From Hymenochaete sp. R1 (taxonomy: Eukaryota; Basidiomycota; Agaricomycetes; Hymenochaetales; Hymenochaetaceae), in the NCBI GenBank assembly GCA_019400425.1, contig JAFREE010000321.1, positions 1-12,486 of the forward strand: 12,486 nucleotides of DNA, read 5' to 3'. Below, piece by piece: positions 1,787 through 12,435 of the stretch; within the stretch, counting starts at the first letter, position 1; every line of letters begins with the position of its first letter. Position numbers and translations under genes: made by a program. The notes beneath the pieces are model-generated. The model saw only the letters and a list, made by a program, of their open reading frames with translations. It ran no database searches and was not told the origin of the DNA.

Positions 1787-2746
1787 CTACAGCGCTTCTT
1801 CGCTCACTTGTTCATCTGCTTTCCTCTTTTTATCCCACTTTCTACTTGCCCTAGTGCTTCCCTGTGCGGTGGGATCGATGCTAGTCCATAGAGGCTTGCC
1901 TTCACCCTGAGGATTGTTGTCGGGAGCTGTGTTTCTCTTGCTACGCCCCTTCCTCTTGTCTATCCCGGCCACGGTAATATTGTAGAACAGTGACGTCTTG
2001 TTGAAATCCTCTTCCAAATTGGTCATATCCATCCAAGAGGCTTTGAGTGCCGACGTCGCATACCGGAGTTCCGTTGTGGGTGATCGCGTGAGATCTGAGG
2101 TAGTACTGGTAGGCAAGCAAGAAATGATGAGCTCATGTAGCGCGTTGACGGAATCATGAGAGTCCTCGTGGAAATCCAACAATTTCTGTACCAAATTCGC
2201 CTTCACGTTCTCGTCTCCTTTCCAGCCAGATACTTCGGAGTCAGTCCAATCAGAGGCGTCCAGAGCCATTTTTGTCGCAGCGCGGAGTGCCGCTCTTCCC
2301 TCATGCAAGTACTTTCGAATACGTTGCCGAGCGGAATCCTTCCGACTCAATCCGACTTCGCCGACATTGTCTTCGACCTTGTAAAAGGATAGATATTCCT
2401 GAAGGAAGAATCGAAACACGTCAGATTTATGCGTTTCTATTGCTTGGTAGAGCTTGTTCAACTCCTTCTGAGACACCCCTGCATCAACCAACTCGGGCCA
2501 GTATCGGTTGGAAGCACTCTGATTTTTCTGTAGAGACGAGAGTCTCTTTGTAAGGGTTTCCCAGGACGACGTAAAAAAGTTACCTGGGCAATCAATAGCT
2601 TCTTCCTTCAGTTTTTCAACTACTTGCTCATTTGCGTCACGGGCGTTATTCCACCATCTCCATGCTATTTCTAGAGCGTCCTCTGGCTTCTTCGCGTTGC
2701 GTATACTGGTGCGCGGAACATCATGATCGTGGCGTACGTTCTCCAT
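1787..2746 (-). CDS. Hypothetical protein, intronless, unknown family
   Basis: A single open frame of 319 residues ends at the stop at 1787-1789. I chose the ATG at 2746 because its context GCCATGG is a strong eukaryotic start. The frame stays open upstream to 2803 but has no other ATG there. The N-terminal two thirds are helix-prone and charged, with many Trp, Leu and Lys/Glu (for example IAWRWWNNARD and FRFFLQEYLSFYKVED). The C-terminal 60 residues are basic and low in hydrophobics, with KRKGRSKRN and RKWDKKRKADEQ, which could be nuclear localisation signals. No membrane segment or signal peptide is visible. I do not recognise the family. Lack of introns among intron-rich neighbours suggests a lineage-specific or retrocopied gene, which is inference only. 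Confidence 0.7.
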   Translation of the reverse strand: MENVRHDHDVPRTSIRNAKKPEDALEIAWRWWNNARDANEQVVEKLKEEAIDCPGNFFTSSWETLTKRLSSLQKNQSASNRYWPELVDAGVSQKELNKLYQAIETHKSDVFRFFLQEYLSFYKVEDNVGEVGLSRKDSARQRIRKYLHEGRAALRAATKMALDASDWTDSEVSGWKGDENVKANLVQKLLDFHEDSHDSVNALHELIISCLPTSTTSDLTRSPTTELRYATSALKASWMDMTNLEEDFNKTSLFYNITVAGIDKRKGRSKRNTAPDNNPQGEGKPLWTSIDPTAQGSTRASRKWDKKRKADEQVSEEAL

Positions 2747-3014
2747 GGCGATGGAGTCACAAGTATAGAAACGGAAAGGATTGAGATGGATCTCACGGGC
2801 CAATGAGTTCGAGCTTTGGATGCGTTTAATACTGATTGAACCTGGAGCAAAGTTCTGCTGCGCAAAGAAAACAGCTCATTGCCGAAAACTGCATAAAGTT
2901 CGCAGTCCGCTTTGAAATTTCGATTTTAATAAAAATATTTTTGGAACTGAGGGCAGGTTTGTATGTGAGAAATCAAGTATTCCATTTCTCTTCACCAGCT
3001 TGTTTGAAGTAGCA

Positions 3015-4781
3015 TTAAATATCGGCTGATGCAAGGGACCACATGTAGTACACTCCTACGGAGAGAAATCATGAATTCCCGTTTTCCAACGTAATGAAAG
3101 GCTTACCTAAACTACGATAGGGTTTCCAGCTATCCGTCAGCTCTTCCATCTCCATTGGGGTCAGGATTGCTCCTCTGAAAAAAGGAAGCAAACTATAGAT
3201 AAGGAAGACAAGACTAAGAAAATTAGAGTACGCACTTGATTTTCTTCTTCCCGTCCAAGCGGGACTGCAGTTCTTTAACGTTCATTCCTTCTGGTAGCGG
3301 AGGAGCATCGTACGTTTGAGGCAGAGTCCTCCTCAACGTTCGATCGATTGACGGCGTAAACGCGGGAGGAGGAAGAGGGATTTCTTTACCCGAGTCACCA
3401 TTTATCTTCTTCGAAGCTTTTTTTGGCGTTGTAGGCACAGCAGATGGAGGGAAGACGGCTGCATCTGGCGTCTTCGCCCGATCGTCGAGTTCGGGTTCCT
3501 TGGCTTGCATTGCGACTTCAAATGCATCTTTGATTTCTACATCAGTAGTCTCTGCCTGGCTCTGGGATTGCGGTTTATCCGATTTAGCGGGAAGCTTCTT
3601 AGGAGAGATGGCGATCGCGTCTTTAGGAGAACGAGAGTGGAGAGAAAGAAACCAGCGTGCAACTCCTCTCTGGACTCCGAGGTCGCCTAGATATGGTGTG
3701 AATGAGCATGAACATGTGAAGCTTCGCTGAACTTACCGACTGGGAGTATGTTGGGTCGACGGAGCGAGAAAATAGCAAACATGTCGACTGTCCACTAAAC
3801 CGTTGTCATTTGTAGGGTACCCAATAATTGTAGAACACACTTACCTTTCCTATGCCACGTACAGCCGTAAGGAGCTCGTACAGTTCGTCATCGGTTGCTC
3901 CTTGGATCTTATCATTGGACAGACGCCCGTCGGCAAATCTCAGGGCTAGGTCTTGAACTGGCGAAAATGTCAGCCGTATTCGAATTCGAAGAGTATCGAC
4001 ATACCATATTCCGCCTTGCGTCCACTCAAACCAGCAGTCCGCAGAACGGTAACATCCGTGGCCGCAACCTGATGTGCAGTTGGGAATGAGTCTAACGCAT
4101 TTCTTGTATAATTTGTTACTTCTCAGCGACTCCGAGATTTTTTTTTAAAAAAAACTGTAGAATCGATCGTGCTCACTTTGCATCATCTGCTTTCTCCGGT
4201 AAGGAAGGATCGAACAAGCGCCTGAATCTATGTGTGATCGATTTAGCTGCAAGCCATGAAATTTGTTGCCCTCTAGTTGAAGTTAATGAGAATGGACGGA
4301 AGAGGTCGCTTAAAAAGACCGTGCCTCACAATATAGATGTTGTTAATGTTCTAGTACCTGTGATTCAGTAATGTAGCATGCTGTCAATATTATTATCTTT
4401 TCACCTAAATGGGTCCATCGTCTCAAGGTGTTCAAAGGGGCGACAGTCGAGTTTAGAGAAAATATCTTCAAATCTTGGATCAGCGGTGAATAGATGAGCC
4501 TTTGCATCGTCGAAAGAAAAAGAAAGGACGGCTGGCAGTGGTGGTGGAGGAGCGGGCCCAGGAGGAGGGATTACTGGAGCCACTGAAGTGTCGCCTCCAA
4601 CATTTTCTACGTCTAGGGCCTTGTTCACGCTGACATTTACGTTCTTGGTCTTTGCAGGCTTTCGCTTCTTCGTAGCATCTTGAACCGTTTTCGTATCTTG
4701 CGACCTGGCGACGACCTTTTTCAGAGGCTTTGCTATGGCTTCAGTTGATGCTTTGCGAGTCGCTGAGCGTAGCACAGGCAT
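3015..4781 (-). CDS. DNA-3-methyladenine glycosylase (HhH-GPD, AlkA/Mag family)
   Basis: Nine exons in transcript order: 4781-4405, 4350-4330, 4272-4177, 4102-4005, 3957-3845, 3794-3737, 3686-3236, 3174-3107, 3055-3015. They sum to 1323 nt (440 residues) with all phases consistent. The enzyme removes alkylated purines as the first step of base excision repair. Residues 1-85 are basic with a KKRKPAK nuclear signal, followed by a proline-rich linker (PPPGPAPPPP). The HhH-GPD domain follows: HLETMDPFR, TLTTSIL, GQQISWLAAKSI, helix-hairpin-helix RGIGKW (GIGK at 232-235), then PVGDLGVQRG, whose Asp256 is the expected catalytic residue. The C-terminal motif WKPYRSLGVYYMW is present. A Lys/Pro/Ser-rich insertion of about 120 residues separates the catalytic region from that C-terminus. 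The start is the ATG at 4781; the frame upstream has no earlier ATG. It shares a 247-bp promoter region with RSE1. Confidence 0.92.
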
Positions 4782-5028
4782 CAGGCTTCGCCTTCCAATA
4801 ATTCTGAGCAGTTTGGATGGAAAGACTTGGTGATAGTCGGGAAGAAAGATCGTTTTCTCCTTCAGCGCCGGCCGGTCAGAGACGGATTTTATAAATTGAA
4901 CATTCAATCGTGGGAATTTTTGCTGATAAATCTAATTTTCGTGACCGCGCCGACCGATAGTAGAGTAGAGTGAGCGCGCCCAAAGCACTTCGTCGACGTC
5001 GACGACACGACTCCGACGACGGACGACG
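4782..5028. promoter_or_regulatory. Shared divergent promoter region (glycosylase / RSE1)
   Basis: Only 247 bp separate the start codons of the two divergent genes, so both promoters and 5' UTRs must fit here. A TATAAAT element sits at 4890-4896, about 110 bp from the glycosylase ATG and about 135 bp from the RSE1 ATG. Its AT-rich surround reads similarly on both strands. The RSE1-proximal part (4988-5028) is rich in CGAC/GACG units and contains the 12-bp palindrome GTCGACGTCGAC (4992-5003) with a GACGTC core. The RSE1 ATG has A at -3. Promoter function is inferred from position. Confidence 0.55.
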
Positions 5029-8000
5029 ATGCATCTCTATAACCTCACCCTTCAACCACCAACGTCGGCAACGCACGCCATCGTTGGGAACTTCTCCGGA
5101 GCTAGGCAGCAAGAGATCATCGTCTCGCGCGGGACACGGCTCGAACTGTTGCGTCCAGATGTCACGACGGGTAAGGTCTCCACAGTAATTGCAGAAGACG
5201 TGTTTGGTTCGATCCGTTCTTTATCTGCGTTCAGGTTAACGGGCGGTTCAAAGGGTGAGCTTGCATGAATTGATTGTTCGGTATGTTTTGTTCACGAACT
5301 CGTATTTGTCTGGTGTCATTTGCAGACTATGCTATCATAGGCTCGGATTCCGGTCGCATCGTCATTCTCGAGTACAATCCGAGTACGACTAGTTTTGTCA
5401 AACTACATCAAGAGACGTATGGGAAGTCTGGTGCTCGACGCATTGTCCCGGGGCAATATCTTGCGACAGATCCGAGGGGGCGTAGTGTCATGATCGCGGG
5501 TGTCGAGAAGGCGAAGCTCGTATACATTCTCAACCGAGATGCGGCAGCCAACCTTACCATTTCATCACCGCTTGAAGCGCACAAGAACGCCTCGATTATA
5601 CACCATATAGTTGGTGTGGATGTTGGCTTTGAAAACCCTTTGTATGCAGCTCTGGAAGTCGATTATTCAGAGTCTGATCAGGATCCAACAGGCGAAGCAT
5701 TTAATAACGCTGAAAAGGTAAACTTTCATCATTTCTTCCTATCGTGCCGCAGACTAACTCATGAAACTGTAGATGCTTACCTTTTACGAGTTGGACCTCG
5801 GTCTGAACCACGTTGTACGGAAATGGAGTGAGCCGACCGATCCGCGAGCTAACTTACTGGTGCAAGTTCCTGGTGGTCAACTTGCGTCATCAGACCGATT
5901 CGATGGACCTTCTGGAGTCCTTATCTGTTGCGAAGATCACATCATTTACCGAAATATGGATGGCCCTCAGCATCGTGTCCCTATACCTCGTCGTCAACAT
6001 CCTTTAGAAAATAAGGAAAGGGGTGTTCTCATTGTTGCAGCAGTGATGCATAAAATGAAGGCGAGTCACGAAGCGTTCTTATAGCTACGCAAACGTCTAA
6101 CGCAATCTCACTAGGGCGCTTTTTTCTTCCTCCTTCAAAGCGAAGACGGTGATCTATTCAAGGTCACCATCGATCATGAAAACGAGAACGTCAATGACCT
6201 TAGAATCAAGTACTTCGATACCGTTCCTGCAGCATCAAGTCTGTGTATCCTCAAGTCAGGTTTCCTTTTTGTTGCATCAGAATTCGGTAACCAGTAAGTA
6301 CGCGATTTGCATCAAAGGAACTCGTCGTGTTCCTGACTCACGCCTGCCAGCTATCTTTATCAGTTTCAAAAACTCGGTGATGATGGCAACGAACCCGAAT
6401 TTTCTTCCTCTGACCATCCTAACTTCGGGATGAGGGACCCTTCAATGCCTTTATCGCACGTCCATTTCCGTCCCCGACCACTGGACAACCTCATTCTCGC
6501 CGATGAACTCGAGTCCCTTGACCCTATCATCGACTCAAAAGTGATGAACATTCTTCCGAATAGTGATGCGCCCCAAATTTTTGCAGCCTGTGGGCGAGGA
6601 CCTCGAAGCACTTTCAGAACCCTTCGACACGGTCTGGAGGTCGAAGAGGTTGTCAGCTCTGACTTGCCTGGTATTCCAAACGCCGTCTGGACGACAAAAA
6701 TCAAAGAAGATGACGCTTACGACTCTTACATTATTCTTTCCTTCGTTAATGGAACTTTAGTACTTTCTATTGGTGAAACGATCGAGGAGGTTCAGGATAC
6801 GGGCTTTCTGTCATCGGCCCCGACACTCGCAGTGCAGCAAATTGGATCTAACGCACTACTTCAGGTGCATCCACAAGGCATCCGTCATGTCTTATCCGAC
6901 AGGAGAGTAAATGAATGGCGAGTTCCCCAAAACCGGACGATCGTAGCTGCGACAACAAACAAGCGTCAGGTCGTAGTAGCTTTGAGTTCGGCTGAGCTCG
7001 TTTACTTTGAGCTCGATCTCGAAGGCCAATTGAACGAGTATCAGGACAGGAAGGCGATGGGGAGCACCGTTCTTGCTCTGAGCGTTGGCGAGGTCCCTGA
7101 AGGTCGCCAGCGAACACCCTATCTGGCTGTTGGGTGTGAAGATCAAACCGTGCGAATCGTCTCTCTTGACCCGGAGAGCACTTTGGAAACGATAAGTTTG
7201 CAAGCGTTGACGGCTCCGCCTGCGGCGATTTGTATTGCGGACATGCTGGATTCTAGTATCGATAAGTTCCAGCCGACGATGTTCGTGAATATCGGGCTAC
7301 AGAACGGCGTGCTATTGAGGACGGTTTTAGACCCTGTAAATGGTCAATTAACGGATACGCGGACGAGGTAATTAAGATAATTACCGTGAGTAATGAGGCT
7401 GATACTTTCGGTAGATTTTTGGGAACACGGCCTGTGAAGCTCATGCGAGTACAAGTGCAGAAGAACCCGTCCATCTTAGCTCTTTCTTCCCGCTCTTGGC
7501 TTAACTATACCCACCAGCAACTCCTCCATTTCACACCACTCATCTTTGAAACGCTTGATCATGCATGGGGTTTCTCGGCGGAGCTCTGTCCTGAAGGTCT
7601 GATCGGCATTGCTGGCAGTTTGCTTCGGTAAGTTTGAATTTATGTTTGAGTGGTCTGTGATGAGAACATGGGATCGTAATGCCATTCGCATTGACGAGAA
7701 ACTTTTTTATATTGTACCAATTGTTCCTACTGAGCTTTAATGCTTTGTCGTTTGTTTTGGTCTTTTTGGTCACTTTTGACACTCTTGCATTACAGTATAT
7801 TCCAGATCCCGAAGTTAGGAACAAAACTAAAGCAAGATTCGATGCCTTTGTCGTACACGCCGCGTAAATTTATTCCTCATCCCGCAAATCGCTTTTTCTA
7901 TATGATCGAAGCTGATCATCGCGTTGCTGGTGATGAGGCCGTACGGCTGAGCATTGATGACTTAGTGAGTTTGTCTTTTTGTTTTCATTACTGGCTTCAT

Positions 8001-9281
8001 GCTCATGTTCCGATAGAGGCAGAAGGGTACTAGAATAGACGACGAAGTCGTCAACCTTCCTATAGAACAATTCGGACGTCCGAAGGCCGCCGCAGGAACC
8101 TGGGGTTCCTGCATCAGAATCATCGATCCTGTTGAGAATAAGACTATTCGTGTTATTCACCTCGATAATAACGAAGCAGCCTTTTCTGTTGCAGTCGTCA
8201 CATTTGCTGCGCGAAGCGCTGAACAATTCCTATGTGTTGGAACTGCGTCGTCGACTTTCTTGGCTCCACGATCGTGCCAGAGCGGATACATCCGCACGTA
8301 TGCATTTACGGAGGAGGGTTCGAACTTGGAACTTATCCACAAGGTGAAGCTTTCCCGCCATTTTTCTGAACGCTTGATTGACAGTTTGTGTTTTAATCAG
8401 ACAGAAACAGATGACGTACCAACAGCACTCATGGCTTTTCAAGGTCGCCTCTGCGCGGGCGTGGGCAAGTCCCTTCGTCTCTATGAAATTGGAAAGAAAA
8501 AGCTTCTGCGAAAAGTCGAGACTAAGGTAAGAATGCACACATCTTAGTCCACTTCAACTCGCTGACAAAAGTGTAGACATTCGGATCTGCCATTATGACG
8601 CTTAATACTCAAGGCTCGCGTATAATCATCGGCGACATGCAAGAATCCGTCGTCTACGCTGTCTACAAGGCGCCAGAAAACCGACTCCTTCTCTTTGCCG
8701 ATGATACGCAACCGCGCTGGATCACCGCTACGGTTATGGTCGATTATATGACTATCGCCGCTGGCGACAAGTTTGGCAATATCTTTGTTAATCGGATGGA
8801 CACGAAGGAGTCGGATCAGGTGGACGATGATCCAACGGGTGCGGGAATCCTCCATGAAAAGAGTATCTTGATGGGTGCACCACATAAGACGAGGTTGATG
8901 TCGCACTTCCACGTGGGCGATATTGTGACGAGTATTCATAAGGTGTCGCTCGTCGCAGGAGGAAGGGAGGTTCTTCTCTATACTTGTCTTCACGGGACAA
9001 TTGGTATCCTCGTTCCCTTCGCCTCGAAAGAGGACGTCGACTTCATCTCGACGCTTGAGCAACATATGCGCTCGGAGAAGCTCAGTCTCGTAGGAAGGGA
9101 TCACCTCGCATGGAGAGGATACTACGTTCCTGTAAAAGCTGTTGTCGATGGGGATCTTTGCGAGCAGTTTGCAAGATTACCAGCGCCGAAGCAATCGTCG
9201 ATCGCCGGGGAACTGGATCGCACAGTGGGAGAGGTATTGAAGAAGTTAGAGCAATTGAGGGTCACTGCAAGTGGGTTCTGA
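5029..9281 (+). CDS. RSE1: Pre-mRNA-splicing factor RSE1 (SF3b subunit 3, SF3B3/SAP130)
   Basis: Ten exons: 5029-5254, 5326-5717, 5773-6060, 6115-6293, 6351-7367, 7415-7627, 7796-7964, 8017-8343, 8401-8526, 8577-9281. They total 3642 nt, or 1213 residues, close to human SF3B3 (1217). The protein is a beta-propeller scaffold of the SF3b complex in U2 snRNP and helps hold the branch-site machinery. Diagnostic stretches are MHLYNLTLQ at the start, [44 protein letters not shown], and [20 protein letters not shown] (MMS1-type N-terminal propellers, roughly residues 75-580). The CPSF_A-type C-terminus (about 850-1180) has [31 protein letters not shown] and [11 protein letters not shown]. Intron 3 (6061-6114) starts with GC, not GT. 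Intron 8 (8344-8400) is 57 nt, phase 0 and stop-free. Intron 6 (7628-7795) is unusually long and holds a snoRNA candidate. All exon phases match; no damage is seen. Confidence 0.97.
7657..7733 (+). ncRNA. Intronic box C/D snoRNA candidate, predicted guide for 18S rRNA A541 (yeast numbering)
   Basis: Lies within RSE1 intron 6. Seen: box C GTGATGA at 7657-7663 (perfect RUGAUGA) and box D CTGA at 7730-7733, 66 nt apart, a normal size for the class. Immediately upstream of box D, CCAATTGTTCCT (7717-7728) is complementary over 12 bp to AGGAACAATTGG, a highly conserved stretch of fungal 18S rRNA upstream of the 530 loop. The fifth nucleotide before box D is T7725; it pairs with the A that counts to yeast 18S A541, a known 2'-O-methylated site (yeast snR41; human counterpart SNORD62). 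A possible D' element is TTGA at 7691-7694. The terminal stem is weak: UUGAG (7646-7650) with UUUAA (7736-7740) includes G-U pairs. The RNA would be released from the spliced intron. Exact ends are uncertain by several nucleotides. Confidence 0.82.
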
Positions 9282-9558
9282 GTATCAGTGGCCGGTGTAC
9301 GCTTCAATCTTCTGTTTGGCACCATAGCATCTTGTCCATTTATGCATTATATTATATTCGTGTGGGATTAAAAACTACTTCAATGCAATACTCGTGCTGT
9401 TCTTGCCAGACGTGTCGCGAGTTTGTTCGTCTCTTACTGGCTCAGCTCTCGTATCACTACGAAACAGAGTCACATCCTCGATCTTGTACACTACTAACGA
9501 TGCTGTTCATTGAACCCCAGATCCAAATTTCCGCAGTGTCCGAGCAGGAAGGGCACTA
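9282..9558. other. Convergent 3' flank between RSE1 and the MoCF-domain gene
   Basis: These 277 bp separate the RSE1 stop from the stop of the opposite gene, so both 3' UTRs must lie here or overlap. A T/A-rich segment near 9339-9375 (TTATATTATATT) is a plausible 3'-end signal region for RSE1; no exact AATAAA is present. An open frame crossing the RSE1 stop in another frame has no family motif and is not called. Confidence 0.5.
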
Positions 9559-11010
9559 TCACAACTGACTCCCATCCTTCTTTTCTTCTCCAACTCTCGC
9601 AGCCAGCACGACCTCTCCTTGCAACTCCTTGACAACCTGCACAAGGTGACGAACGCGTAAATTAATAAGTCGTTTTATAGACAAAGGGCGCTCACCTCTT
9701 GCCCCAGTTCTCGTACTCGCTGCTCGTCTTTCCCAATCAGACTCACGTATACGCCTTTCTGGAATAAAGGATACGACCCGACGCGCACGCCTTCTGCATT
9801 GACACACTTTTGGAGCGTAGTCAGATACGGGGCGATGTTCGATTCTGGCATCCTAGTAATATATTAGACGAAACCGAAAAGTAGAGTGCGATTCATGCGA
9901 CGTACTTCGTGAATATTTGATGTCGGAAGGGTCGTTCATTCGGAGGCGGGAGTGCGAGGTAGGGTGCAAGTCCGTTGAGGAGTTTTAGGAAGAGACTCGG
10001 AATGCCTGGGAAGATGCATAATTTGCCTTCCAATCTAACAACGGGCTAAGGAGATAATTAGGTCAAAACTATTATTGAAAAAGAAGTGATGAATGTAGAC
10101 AAAACTTACGACCCATAAGTCTCCACTGATGAAAATAGCTTCGGCGTTCGCGGAGAACAGAGCCATCCGTTCTCTGGCCGTCCGCTGTTCTTCCGTTTGT
10201 TTTTGCACATCGATACGGTGTTTCGACATTTCTGTCATTCGACGCAAGGTCTCTTCATGATGCACAAGTGGCTGATTAAAGGCGACCGCTAAGGATTGAT
10301 AGGTGATGTCTTTGGTATGATAAGAGCATCGTTGGTTAGATGCCATACTTCATTTCATCATGTGCCACGCACCGTCATGGGTTGGACCAATACCACCGGA
10401 GGTGATGACGAAATCATAGTTCTTCACCAGACGTCGACTGGCCTCTACGCTAAGAAACCCAGACAGAATTTAGCGTTTACCAGCACCCCAAGAGCACCAC
10501 TGACGTACATTTCATCCTCGTCATCTGCAATGACCTCAATGCGTTTCCTGCCGCAAGCCAGAGTCTCAGATGCCACGCATCATTCTCCCCGATAATCACG
10601 AAGTACTTGCAGTTCAATTCCATGCTCAAAGCAGAACTTAGCAAACGAGTTTGAGTTGGTGTCCTGCGTCTTGCCGTTCAAAATCTCGTCACTGGCATGC
10701 AGGGCTTATTCAGCGTCCAAAGCATATGACACAAGGCGATCCAAAATACACACCCAATGATTAGGCATGCTGCTGTCTTAATCCAGCTCCCATCTTTGGG
10801 TGCCGAAGGTATTGGAGTGACTTCGAAGTTGTACGTCTGAGTAAGCGCACTTTGCGATTTCTCGCCTGGGGCTGGTGTGGCTGAGGACATGTGTCGGCTG
10901 ATTGAAAGATTTTGTCTGCTCGCGTGAACAGGCTTCGTGATAGCTTGCAATTGCCTGTGAAGGTGTGTACGTCGTGAGAGCTGGTTGAGGCGAGTGAAAG
11001 TTGGGAGCAT
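9559..11010 (-). CDS. MoCF (MoaB/Mog/CinA-like) domain protein
   Basis: Eight exons in transcript order: 11010-10754, 10691-10611, 10547-10509, 10449-10373, 10309-10110, 10045-9906, 9852-9696, 9636-9559. They total 1029 nt, or 342 residues. The domain starts at [20 protein letters not shown] (about residues 80-98), then [17 protein letters not shown], then the nucleotide/pterin-binding loop [16 protein letters not shown] (142-157), then ISGDLWV and [10 protein letters not shown]. The C-terminal part resembles the extension in CinA and in the N-terminal domain of human FLAD1, so a nucleotide hydrolase or pterin-related role is possible but unproven. Intron 2 (10610-10548) begins with GCAAGT. 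The start is uncertain: ATG 11010 opens an Arg/His/Ser-rich, acid-poor leader that looks mitochondrial; ATG 11076 has the best context; ATG 10890 (MSSATP) would give a 302-residue protein without the leader. A TATATA element lies near 11181-11187. Confidence 0.9.
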
Positions 11011-11238
11011 GGAGTCTTCAAAGTGGACGGAAGCTGAGCTAAACTGGTCGCGTGCTGGTTGCGCGACCGCATCCATCCCCTCCACGCGCCACACCCACGA
11101 ATGCGCGCGTCGAATTGAAAGCGTATAAACATTGTCGAAAAATGAGACAATTTAGATGAAAGGATTGTTCTGCAGCTGTAATATATACACATGAGGGTGC
11201 CAGATGTCCGAAAGTTCGCAATAATGTTTCGAACGATA

Positions 11239-11733
11239 TTAGGAGTGGAATCTAATGAACTGCTTTGGTCTGCTGTCCCAATCTACCTCCGCCTTGAAAA
11301 CACTAGCTTCACACGAGAAATACCATTTGGCTTCCCTCGCCTCAGGCACGAGCTCCCTCCTAACCCTTTGCACCCGATTCAAGGTCATTCTCCTTTCATG
11401 CGATTTCTTCGGTGCCTCATGAGCGTGGATCGCCAAAACGTACGCACGCTCCTTCGTAGGAGAATCAGGATTCCACGCCAGCATAGGCCCAATACAATCA
11501 TATTCTCGTCGCAAATATTCCGTTACGCGATCCATTACACGCTCGGTTTCGTCTTCGCCGGGCCGTTCATCGGCAAAAATGTTCGCTCCGAAGGGAGAAT
11601 CATCTATGACGCTCGGAGGATCGAAGAATGAGAGGGAGTCGTTGATGCGTTTGATAACGTCGAAGTCAATTTCGATGCCATAGACCCAGTAGACTTTGGA
11701 TTTAGGGCGGCACATGAAGGTATAATAGGACAT
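11239..11733 (-). CDS. Hypothetical protein, unknown family
   Basis: An open frame of 164 residues from the ATG at 11733 (G at -3) to the stop at 11239. It is rich in charged and aromatic residues (CRPKSKVYWVYGIEID near the start, FDVIKRINDSLSFFDPP following) with no signal peptide or membrane span. I do not recognise the family. The frame may extend through an upstream exon. A good GT-AG intron (GTACGT to CTAG, 11819-11749) would join SYNYKPSSSAHQ in frame to PVYDYEMSYY. That upstream exon is open back to about 11969 but has no ATG of its own, so a further start exon would be needed. The ATG at 11733 is therefore a conservative start. Confidence 0.65.
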   Translation of the reverse strand: MSYYTFMCRPKSKVYWVYGIEIDFDVIKRINDSLSFFDPPSVIDDSPFGANIFADERPGEDETERVMDRVTEYLRREYDCIGPMLAWNPDSPTKERAYVLAIHAHEAPKKSHERRMTLNRVQRVRRELVPEAREAKWYFSCEASVFKAEVDWDSRPKQFIRFHS

Positions 11734-11819
11734 TTCGTAGTCGTAGACGGGCCTAGACGACAGGGTGCAAATAGATATTCGATTGAGAAGGATCTTGAAG
11801 TAAAGGACAAGACGTACTG

Positions 11820-12252
11820 ATGAGCACTCGATGAAGGCTTATAATTATACGAAGCAGAAGCAAAGGCTTCGTCGTTACTTATACAAGCCTGAGGCGCTTC
11901 ATGAGGTAAATGAGTGCATCGTGAGGCAATGACCTGCCGTCGAAGCGAGGTCCGAAGCTCCAACTTCACGATGCCTCGACGTGGTGTTCACAATAGTAAA
12001 AGATGTGAGAAATGAAATTGAGATGCCAGTTTTCATATCTCAGAGATCGCTTTATTTAGGCTGATCTCGCCTGCAAGAGCGGAAACTCTGGTTGGAGTGA
12101 AGCCGTGAATATCAAAAGGAAGCGATGTCAGATTTGGAAGTGGAACGTACACGTGATGATATCCGACGTGTACGCGTCGGCCAAGCTACTTCTCATACAA
12201 ATGAAATAATAATAATAACACATATACTCTCGGGAATGGGAAGACAGAGCTT
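11820..12252. other. Upstream region of the unknown gene, with no complete gene
   Basis: About 430 bp between the possible upstream exon of the gene ending at 11239 and the basic-tail reading frame at the right edge. It contains an inverted repeat at 12146-12174 and a short AAT repeat (about 12205-12217). Part of 11820-11969 may be coding on the minus strand. Nothing else is recognised. Confidence 0.45.
12146..12174. repeat. 9-bp perfect inverted repeat with E-box
   Basis: CGTACACGT (12146-12154) and ACGTGTACG (12166-12174) are exact reverse complements separated by 11 bp, so the arm centres lie 20 bp apart, about two helical turns. A CACGTG E-box lies at 12150-12155. The right arm also sits in an overlapping near-palindrome of 18 bp (12163-12180, CCGACG...CGTCGG). 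It lies upstream of the minus-strand gene at 11239-11733 and just downstream of the gene at the right edge. A paired binding site for a dimeric regulator is possible but inferred. Confidence 0.6.
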
Positions 12253-12435
12253 CTATTTTCGCTTCTTTGTCGTCTTCCCCGCCACTGCCTTCCCAGACGT
12301 TGCTCGAGTGTTTTGCCCATCTGCAGCGACATTAACTGCATCGTTCAATGCACTGGCCGCCTTACGCTTCCCCCTCGTGGTCGATCTCCCTGAATCCCCG
12401 TCCCCATTTGGGCCGTCATTGCTAAAGTGTATCAT
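12253..12435 (-). CDS. Basic C-terminal tail, probable last exon of a gene off the right edge
   Basis: The frame ends at the stop at 12253 and encodes a Lys/Arg/Ala/Gly-rich tail with RGKRKAAS and the terminus KTTKKRK, which look like nuclear localisation signals. It could begin at the ATG at 12435 as a 60-residue peptide. More likely it is a terminal exon: a TTTAG acceptor at 12426-12422 would start the exon at 12421, with a GTACAT donor about 53 bp upstream, inside the window. No domain is visible, so the product cannot be named. Confidence 0.45.
   Translation of the reverse strand: MIHFSNDGPNGDGDSGRSTTRGKRKAASALNDAVNVAADGQNTRATSGKAVAGKTTKKRK

Follow-up and report, generated by a model that had tools for sequence, protein, structure and literature searches.

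The window analysed here, positions 1 to 12,486 of contig JAFREE010000321.1 of Hymenochaete sp. R1, carries the gene for RSE1, the orthologue of SF3B3, and within the sixth intron of that gene lies a putative box C/D snoRNA. The gene model was built from splice signals, continuity of the frame and comparison with SF3B3, and is as such a prediction. The features that the following paragraphs refer to are these:

5029..9281, + strand: RSE1 (SF3B3 orthologue), the host gene, with nine exons and eight introns, 1232 amino acids, open reading frame intact
7628..7795, + strand: predicted RSE1 intron 6, GTAAGT...TTACAG, 168 nt, with the snoRNA inside it and the frame reading across the junction
7652..7654, + strand: possible 5' arm of a terminal stem, GGU, from duplex folding with 6-nt flanks; partner 7734-7736 GCU
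7657..7733, + strand: predicted snoRNA core from box C to box D, 77 nt, from the sequence
7657..7663, + strand: box C, GTGATGA, perfect against the consensus RUGAUGA and the same in the copy on contig C192
7691..7697, + strand: possible degenerate box C', TTGACGA, by inspection only, in the part of the element on which the Rfam snR41 model begins to align
7717..7728, + strand: guide CCAATTGTTCCT, 12 bp with 18S AGGAACAATTGG, position 7725 opposite A541 (box D + 5) on the anchor given below
7730..7733, + strand: box D, CTGA, perfect and the same in the C192 copy
7734..7736, + strand: GCU, which may form the 3' arm of that stem, from duplex folding with 6-nt flanks; partner 7652-7654

The spliced translation of RSE1 holds a single stop codon, the terminal one, and a 313-aa piece encoded at 6430-7371, when compared with the PDB, matches Rse1/SF3B3 chains with E values down to 4.5e-119. 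A protein search returned 352 relatives, 120 of which were listed; among the matches listed with names the near ones are Agaricomycetes, Hypholoma (83%) and Moniliophthora (82%) being examples. In viral contigs, seven stretches fit the RSE1-relative pattern and none of them was confirmed. According to the gene model the other seven introns measure 71, 55, 54, 57, 47, 52 and 50 nt, which makes intron 6 between 2.4 and 3.6 times as long as the rest. The sequence-only reading of this DNA had placed the element in RSE1 intron 6 and had called that intron two to three times longer than the others, and this is borne out by 168 nt versus 47-71 nt. Intron 3 (6061-6114) is modelled as a GC-AG intron (GCGAGT...CTAG), in the window as well as in the C192 copy.

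Box C/D snoRNAs are stable small RNAs that bind Snu13, Nop56, Nop58 and fibrillarin. The element in intron 6 has the layout of this class: a box C (RUGAUGA) and a box D (CUGA), located where the sequence-only reading had reported perfect copies of both, stand at its ends and tens of nucleotides apart, and its antisense stretch, which lies upstream of box D and within the 10-21 nt usual upstream of D or D', puts its target opposite nucleotide 5 when judged against yeast 18S. Going by inferred ends, the mature RNA would probably measure some 80-90 nt. Inspection of the element revealed no clear D' box and no second guide. The possible terminal stem amounts to 3 bp, two of which are G-U, and is no stronger than chance flanks would yield: with flanks of 6 nt, 40% of 500 random pairs did as well, and in the window element longer flanks favour a different pairing.

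Letter for letter, the guide at 7717-7728 is the reverse complement of AGGAACAATTGG, a stretch contained in the probe TACCTTAACGAGGAACAATTGGAGGGCAAGTC that PMC8044721 gives for yeast 18S, and the earlier claim that the 12 nt beside box D match conserved 18S rRNA thus holds exactly against this yeast probe. The fifth nucleotide from box D (7725, T) lies opposite the first A of GGAAC, while N1 (7729, A) lies opposite a G and is unpaired. We take the first G of GTGCCAGC to be yeast G562, and on this assumed anchor the A facing 7725 is A541, the very position to which the rule of box D plus five had been said to lead; the same anchor puts U578 16 bases further on. Since the Gm562 and Um578 of the methylation table in PMC5199042 agree with this count, the anchor is consistent, and the same table assigns Am541 to snR41. 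As for the fungus itself, neither a 129-nt 18S fragment nor an 18-nt exact target pattern retrieved 18S rDNA from the assembly, an empty answer that shows little, very common words being skipped in such a search. Most likely the assembly lacks the rDNA; alternatively, the 18S target may be altered in this fungus. A 29-nt 18S pattern gave no matches in viral contigs.

The whole assembly (27.8 Mb, 336 contigs) was searched for a pattern consisting of box C, 40-70 nt, the guide and box D. In its exact form this pattern occurs at two places, namely this locus and its syntenic copy on contig C192, and the reversed-pattern controls gave none; the shorter pattern CAATTGTTCCNNCTGA, which lacks box C, marks the same two places, with the controls again at zero. 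Another clear A541 guide in the genome, with no transcript from this one, would, by the sequence-only reading's own account, have counted against it; among perfectly matched guides at this distance from a CTGA, the form that the search covered, none turned up beyond these two places. One strict pattern for a separate guide to 18S G1126 likewise gave no match in the assembly, a result that says little.

Contig C192 (6331-16630) shares synteny with the window over roughly 1968-12410; the alignment falls into four pieces with identities of 91.6-93.5%, and going by it the copy is an allele, a haplotig or a recent duplicate. Outside the aligned part, the plus strand of the window encodes at 149-991 an incomplete protein kinase of the fungal type (PF17667 in Pfam, E 3.1e-16). 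Within the snoRNA core 6 of 77 nt differ between the two copies, and boxes and guide carry no changes. With 23 of the 77 core positions in boxes and guide, the chance of sparing all of them is about 1 in 9 (0.11-0.12); all six differences fall within 7664-7703, and the value of 0.02 computed for this clustering uses a boundary that was picked with the data already in view. Identity between copy and window is 92.3% in the core and 92.1% in the region; taken as a whole, the core thus shows no conservation beyond that of its surroundings, and the copy lends weak support only. At 7652-7654, C192 has AGC, and the changes at 7652 and 7654 both keep the 3-bp pairing; with 6-nt flanks, 11% of 500 random flank controls are as good as the resulting terminal stem. 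In C192 the GT of the intron-6 5' splice site is replaced by AT, and five small deletions (2, 4, 1, 1 and 2 nt), none of them a multiple of three, interrupt the exons of RSE1 there. As such, the RSE1 of C192 looks damaged, either as a decaying allele or duplicate, or through an error of the assembly at that place.

The lost splice site and the frameshifts of the copy, together with the weak terminal stem, would fit an element that descends from a working A541 guide and is no longer processed or used, the site being guided by another RNA or by none. In the window itself, however, the RSE1 frame and both splice sites of intron 6 are intact, the boxes and the guide are unchanged in either copy, and no second A541 guide with an exact match and this CTGA spacing was found in the assembly. 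A relic of this kind is unlikely on such evidence, and a working guide remains the reading that we prefer.

Nothing in the window attains the gathering score of any Rfam family. At low stringency the best match is snR41 (RF01218), at 25.0 bits (E 0.036) for the window and 28.2 bits (E 0.0072) for the C192 copy, the gathering cut-off being 50 bits. When the genome was searched with RF01218 at E up to 10, with 55 of 1973 first-look candidates scored, only the window (E 0.78) and the copy (E 0.12) were among the matches listed. Of the 14 prokaryote genomes used as controls, 9 also give sub-cut-off matches in this search, and the snR41 score by itself therefore lies within chance; the weight of the search is that its best two places both coincide with the element. 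In the comparison with an Rfam covariance model that had been proposed along with the sequence-only reading, the best snR41 match does fall on the element but, at 25.0 of 50 bits, stays below the gathering score. In the alignment UACCAAUUGUUCC.ACUGA is shared, and the second half of this RNA is laid on the first half of the model; judged by this, the element is not a full-length snR41 and is not filed under RF01218. Matches to snoU83D, snoU83B, snR75 and SNORD39 in the intron region were put down to chance, all of them having low scores, none near its cut-off and none tied to the guide. Elsewhere in the assembly, the classical snoRNA family RF00309 (snosnR60_Z15) is listed once above its cut-off, on the minus strand of C266 at 25762-25860 (48.3 bits), with 0 of 14 controls above the cut-off and five giving matches below it. 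Low Rfam scores are unsurprising in basidiomycetes, given that a Pleurotus survey by Rfam is described in PMC5040776 as yielding only seven snoRNAs.

A pair of boxes C and D alone is weak evidence, as such pairs are common by chance. Both strands of the window together have two RTGATGA...CTGA pairs, where 300 dinucleotide shuffles average 0.84; a plus-strand pair arose in 129 of 20000 shuffles of intron 6. A minus-strand pair at 5732, opposite the RSE1 coding strand, was set aside, its rate being that expected by chance. Under equal base frequencies, the rough expectation per window is 2.7e-4 for a box pair whose 12-nt guide fits perfectly and in register to any one of 5400 rRNA positions, an assumed total, and 5e-8 for a pair whose guide fits one given site in this way. 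It is thus the guide in register, and not the boxes by themselves, that lifts the element above chance. The pattern of box C, guide and box D also matches three stretches in prokaryote genome contigs and one in viral contigs, and these four were rejected as snoRNAs: on inspection they look like coding DNA, and at gathering score Rfam finds no snoRNA in them, its only matches being two tRNAs, both in one stretch (L008). Frequent box pairs, these four coding-like matches and the sub-cut-off snR41 matches of the prokaryote controls notwithstanding, it is extremely unlikely that chance brought RTGATGA, CTGA and a 12-nt complement of 18S together in an ordinary long intron, considering the small expectation for any rRNA position and the far smaller one for a known site, the unusual length of the intron, the exact D+5 register and the absence of reversed-pattern matches from the assembly.

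The working guide that we favour has several known counterparts. As in the group of A541 guides that snR41-I and Nc CD13 form in filamentous fungi, the element is intronic with a single D guide of about 12 bp, its target having been read on yeast 18S. Table 1 of PMC2780460 gives Neurospora crassa Nc CD13 as an intronic RNA of 84 nt whose guide lies at box D and matches its one listed target, 18S-Am538, by 12/0, and names S. pombe snR41-I, yeast snR41, plant snR41Y and human U62A/B as homologues. By that table's description, the element here is CD13-like in its intronic position, single D guide, 12/0 match and equivalent target, with a 77-nt core versus 84 nt, although CD13 belongs to an ascomycete. 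The guide is also the same as that of S. cerevisiae snR41 (RF01218), with UACCAAUUGUUCCgACUGA as the model consensus and UACCAAUUGUUCCUACUGA here, but in the Rfam model it belongs to the RNA's first half, whereas in our element it lies by box D. Moreover, snR41 of budding yeast is a double guide, serving Am541 and Gm1126 in the table of PMC5199042, while in the element here no G1126 guide was seen on inspection against the 18S stretch concerned; in Neurospora, the counterpart for that other target is given as a separate RNA, CD9, at 18S-Gm1122 (PMC2780460). Chicken GGgCD14 (U62A/B, SNORD62), as entered in PMC2653536 with snR41 as its counterpart, is intronic in the host LOC417177 and has a 12-nt guide for 18S-A-551. 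Going by that entry, the element here resembles U62A/B in its equivalent 18S target, 12-nt guide and intron location; the host gene differs, as does the side of the guide, which for chicken is given as 5' and which we read as D', versus D here. The snR41-snR70-snR51 cluster is described as intronic in Basidiomycota (PMC3596301), and as the cluster member in Neurospora is CD9 according to PMC2780460, the RSE1 element is probably a different gene from the snR41 member of that cluster.

The two sites served by yeast snR41 (PMC5199042) and the possible box C' seen on inspection at 7691-7697 would both suit a working snoRNA with its main role at another target, or with a second site reached through the D' side, but there is no clear D' box and the would-be D' guide differs between the copies at 7673 and 7679, which leaves such a role the slightest of probabilities.

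The host gene itself also has a parallel. Introns of human and chicken SF3B3 carry SNORD111/111B, for which 28S G3923 is given as the human target (PMC6124571, PMC2653536). These are likewise box C/D RNAs in the orthologue of RSE1, but with a 28S target and a different guide; a splicing factor as host is thus not new, SF3B3 already being one, even though the guide is another. The predicted snoRNA in RSE1 is unreported in the titles and abstract openings among the openly licensed papers listed, though 'The fungal snoRNAome' (Canzler et al. 2018, cited in PMC8476143) may already list it.

Taken together, RSE1 intron 6 very probably harbours a box C/D snoRNA by which the adenosine equivalent to A541 is marked out for methylation, working like snR41-I, CD13 and U62. 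Host, intron, boxes, guide and target position all agree, no further exact guide at this CTGA spacing came up in the assembly and CD13 is of the same design, which supports the interpretation that the sequence-only reading had put forward, that of an A541 box C/D guide in RSE1 intron 6. In the mechanism that we propose, the RSE1 pre-mRNA would be spliced, after which the intron-6 lariat would be debranched and trimmed by exonucleases, with C/D proteins on boxes C and D protecting the core. The 12 nt before box D would pair with 18S, and fibrillarin would 2'-O-methylate the adenosine equivalent to yeast A541, with one guide as in Neurospora CD13, S. pombe snR41-I and U62, and unlike the double-guide snR41 of budding yeast. 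We infer this processing, protein binding and methylation from what the DNA displays, namely the sequence with its boxes, the predicted intron, the complementarity to yeast 18S, the D+5 register and, within the assembly, an exact motif confined to this locus and one syntenic copy.

The sequence-only reading had proposed that a U2 snRNP subunit gene as host might couple splicing-factor and ribosome-modification output. It could further be imagined that snoRNAs recur in RSE1/SF3B3 of both fungi and animals because guides housed in a U2 snRNP gene set up a feedback, where the level of RSE1 would act on the splicing of intron 6, this on the release of the guide, and the guide in turn on 18S methylation. 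We regard this as very unlikely; if true, it would link splicing capacity to ribosome quality. Apart from any such loop, the predicted element, taken with animal SNORD111, places snoRNAs in RSE1/SF3B3 in two kingdoms, and whether this reflects independent colonisation or an old association thereby becomes checkable. In kind the finding is ordinary, both the mark and the type of guide being known already from yeast, other fungi and animals, and knowledge of rRNA methylation is unchanged by it. It does add a well-supported predicted A541 guide in an Agaricomycete, one that Rfam's current model misses at its cut-off, and with it an Agaricomycete example of the single-guide, D-side, intronic form known for Neurospora. 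Its interest lies in being a clean example in this fungal group, and in what would be a second kind of snoRNA in RSE1/SF3B3.
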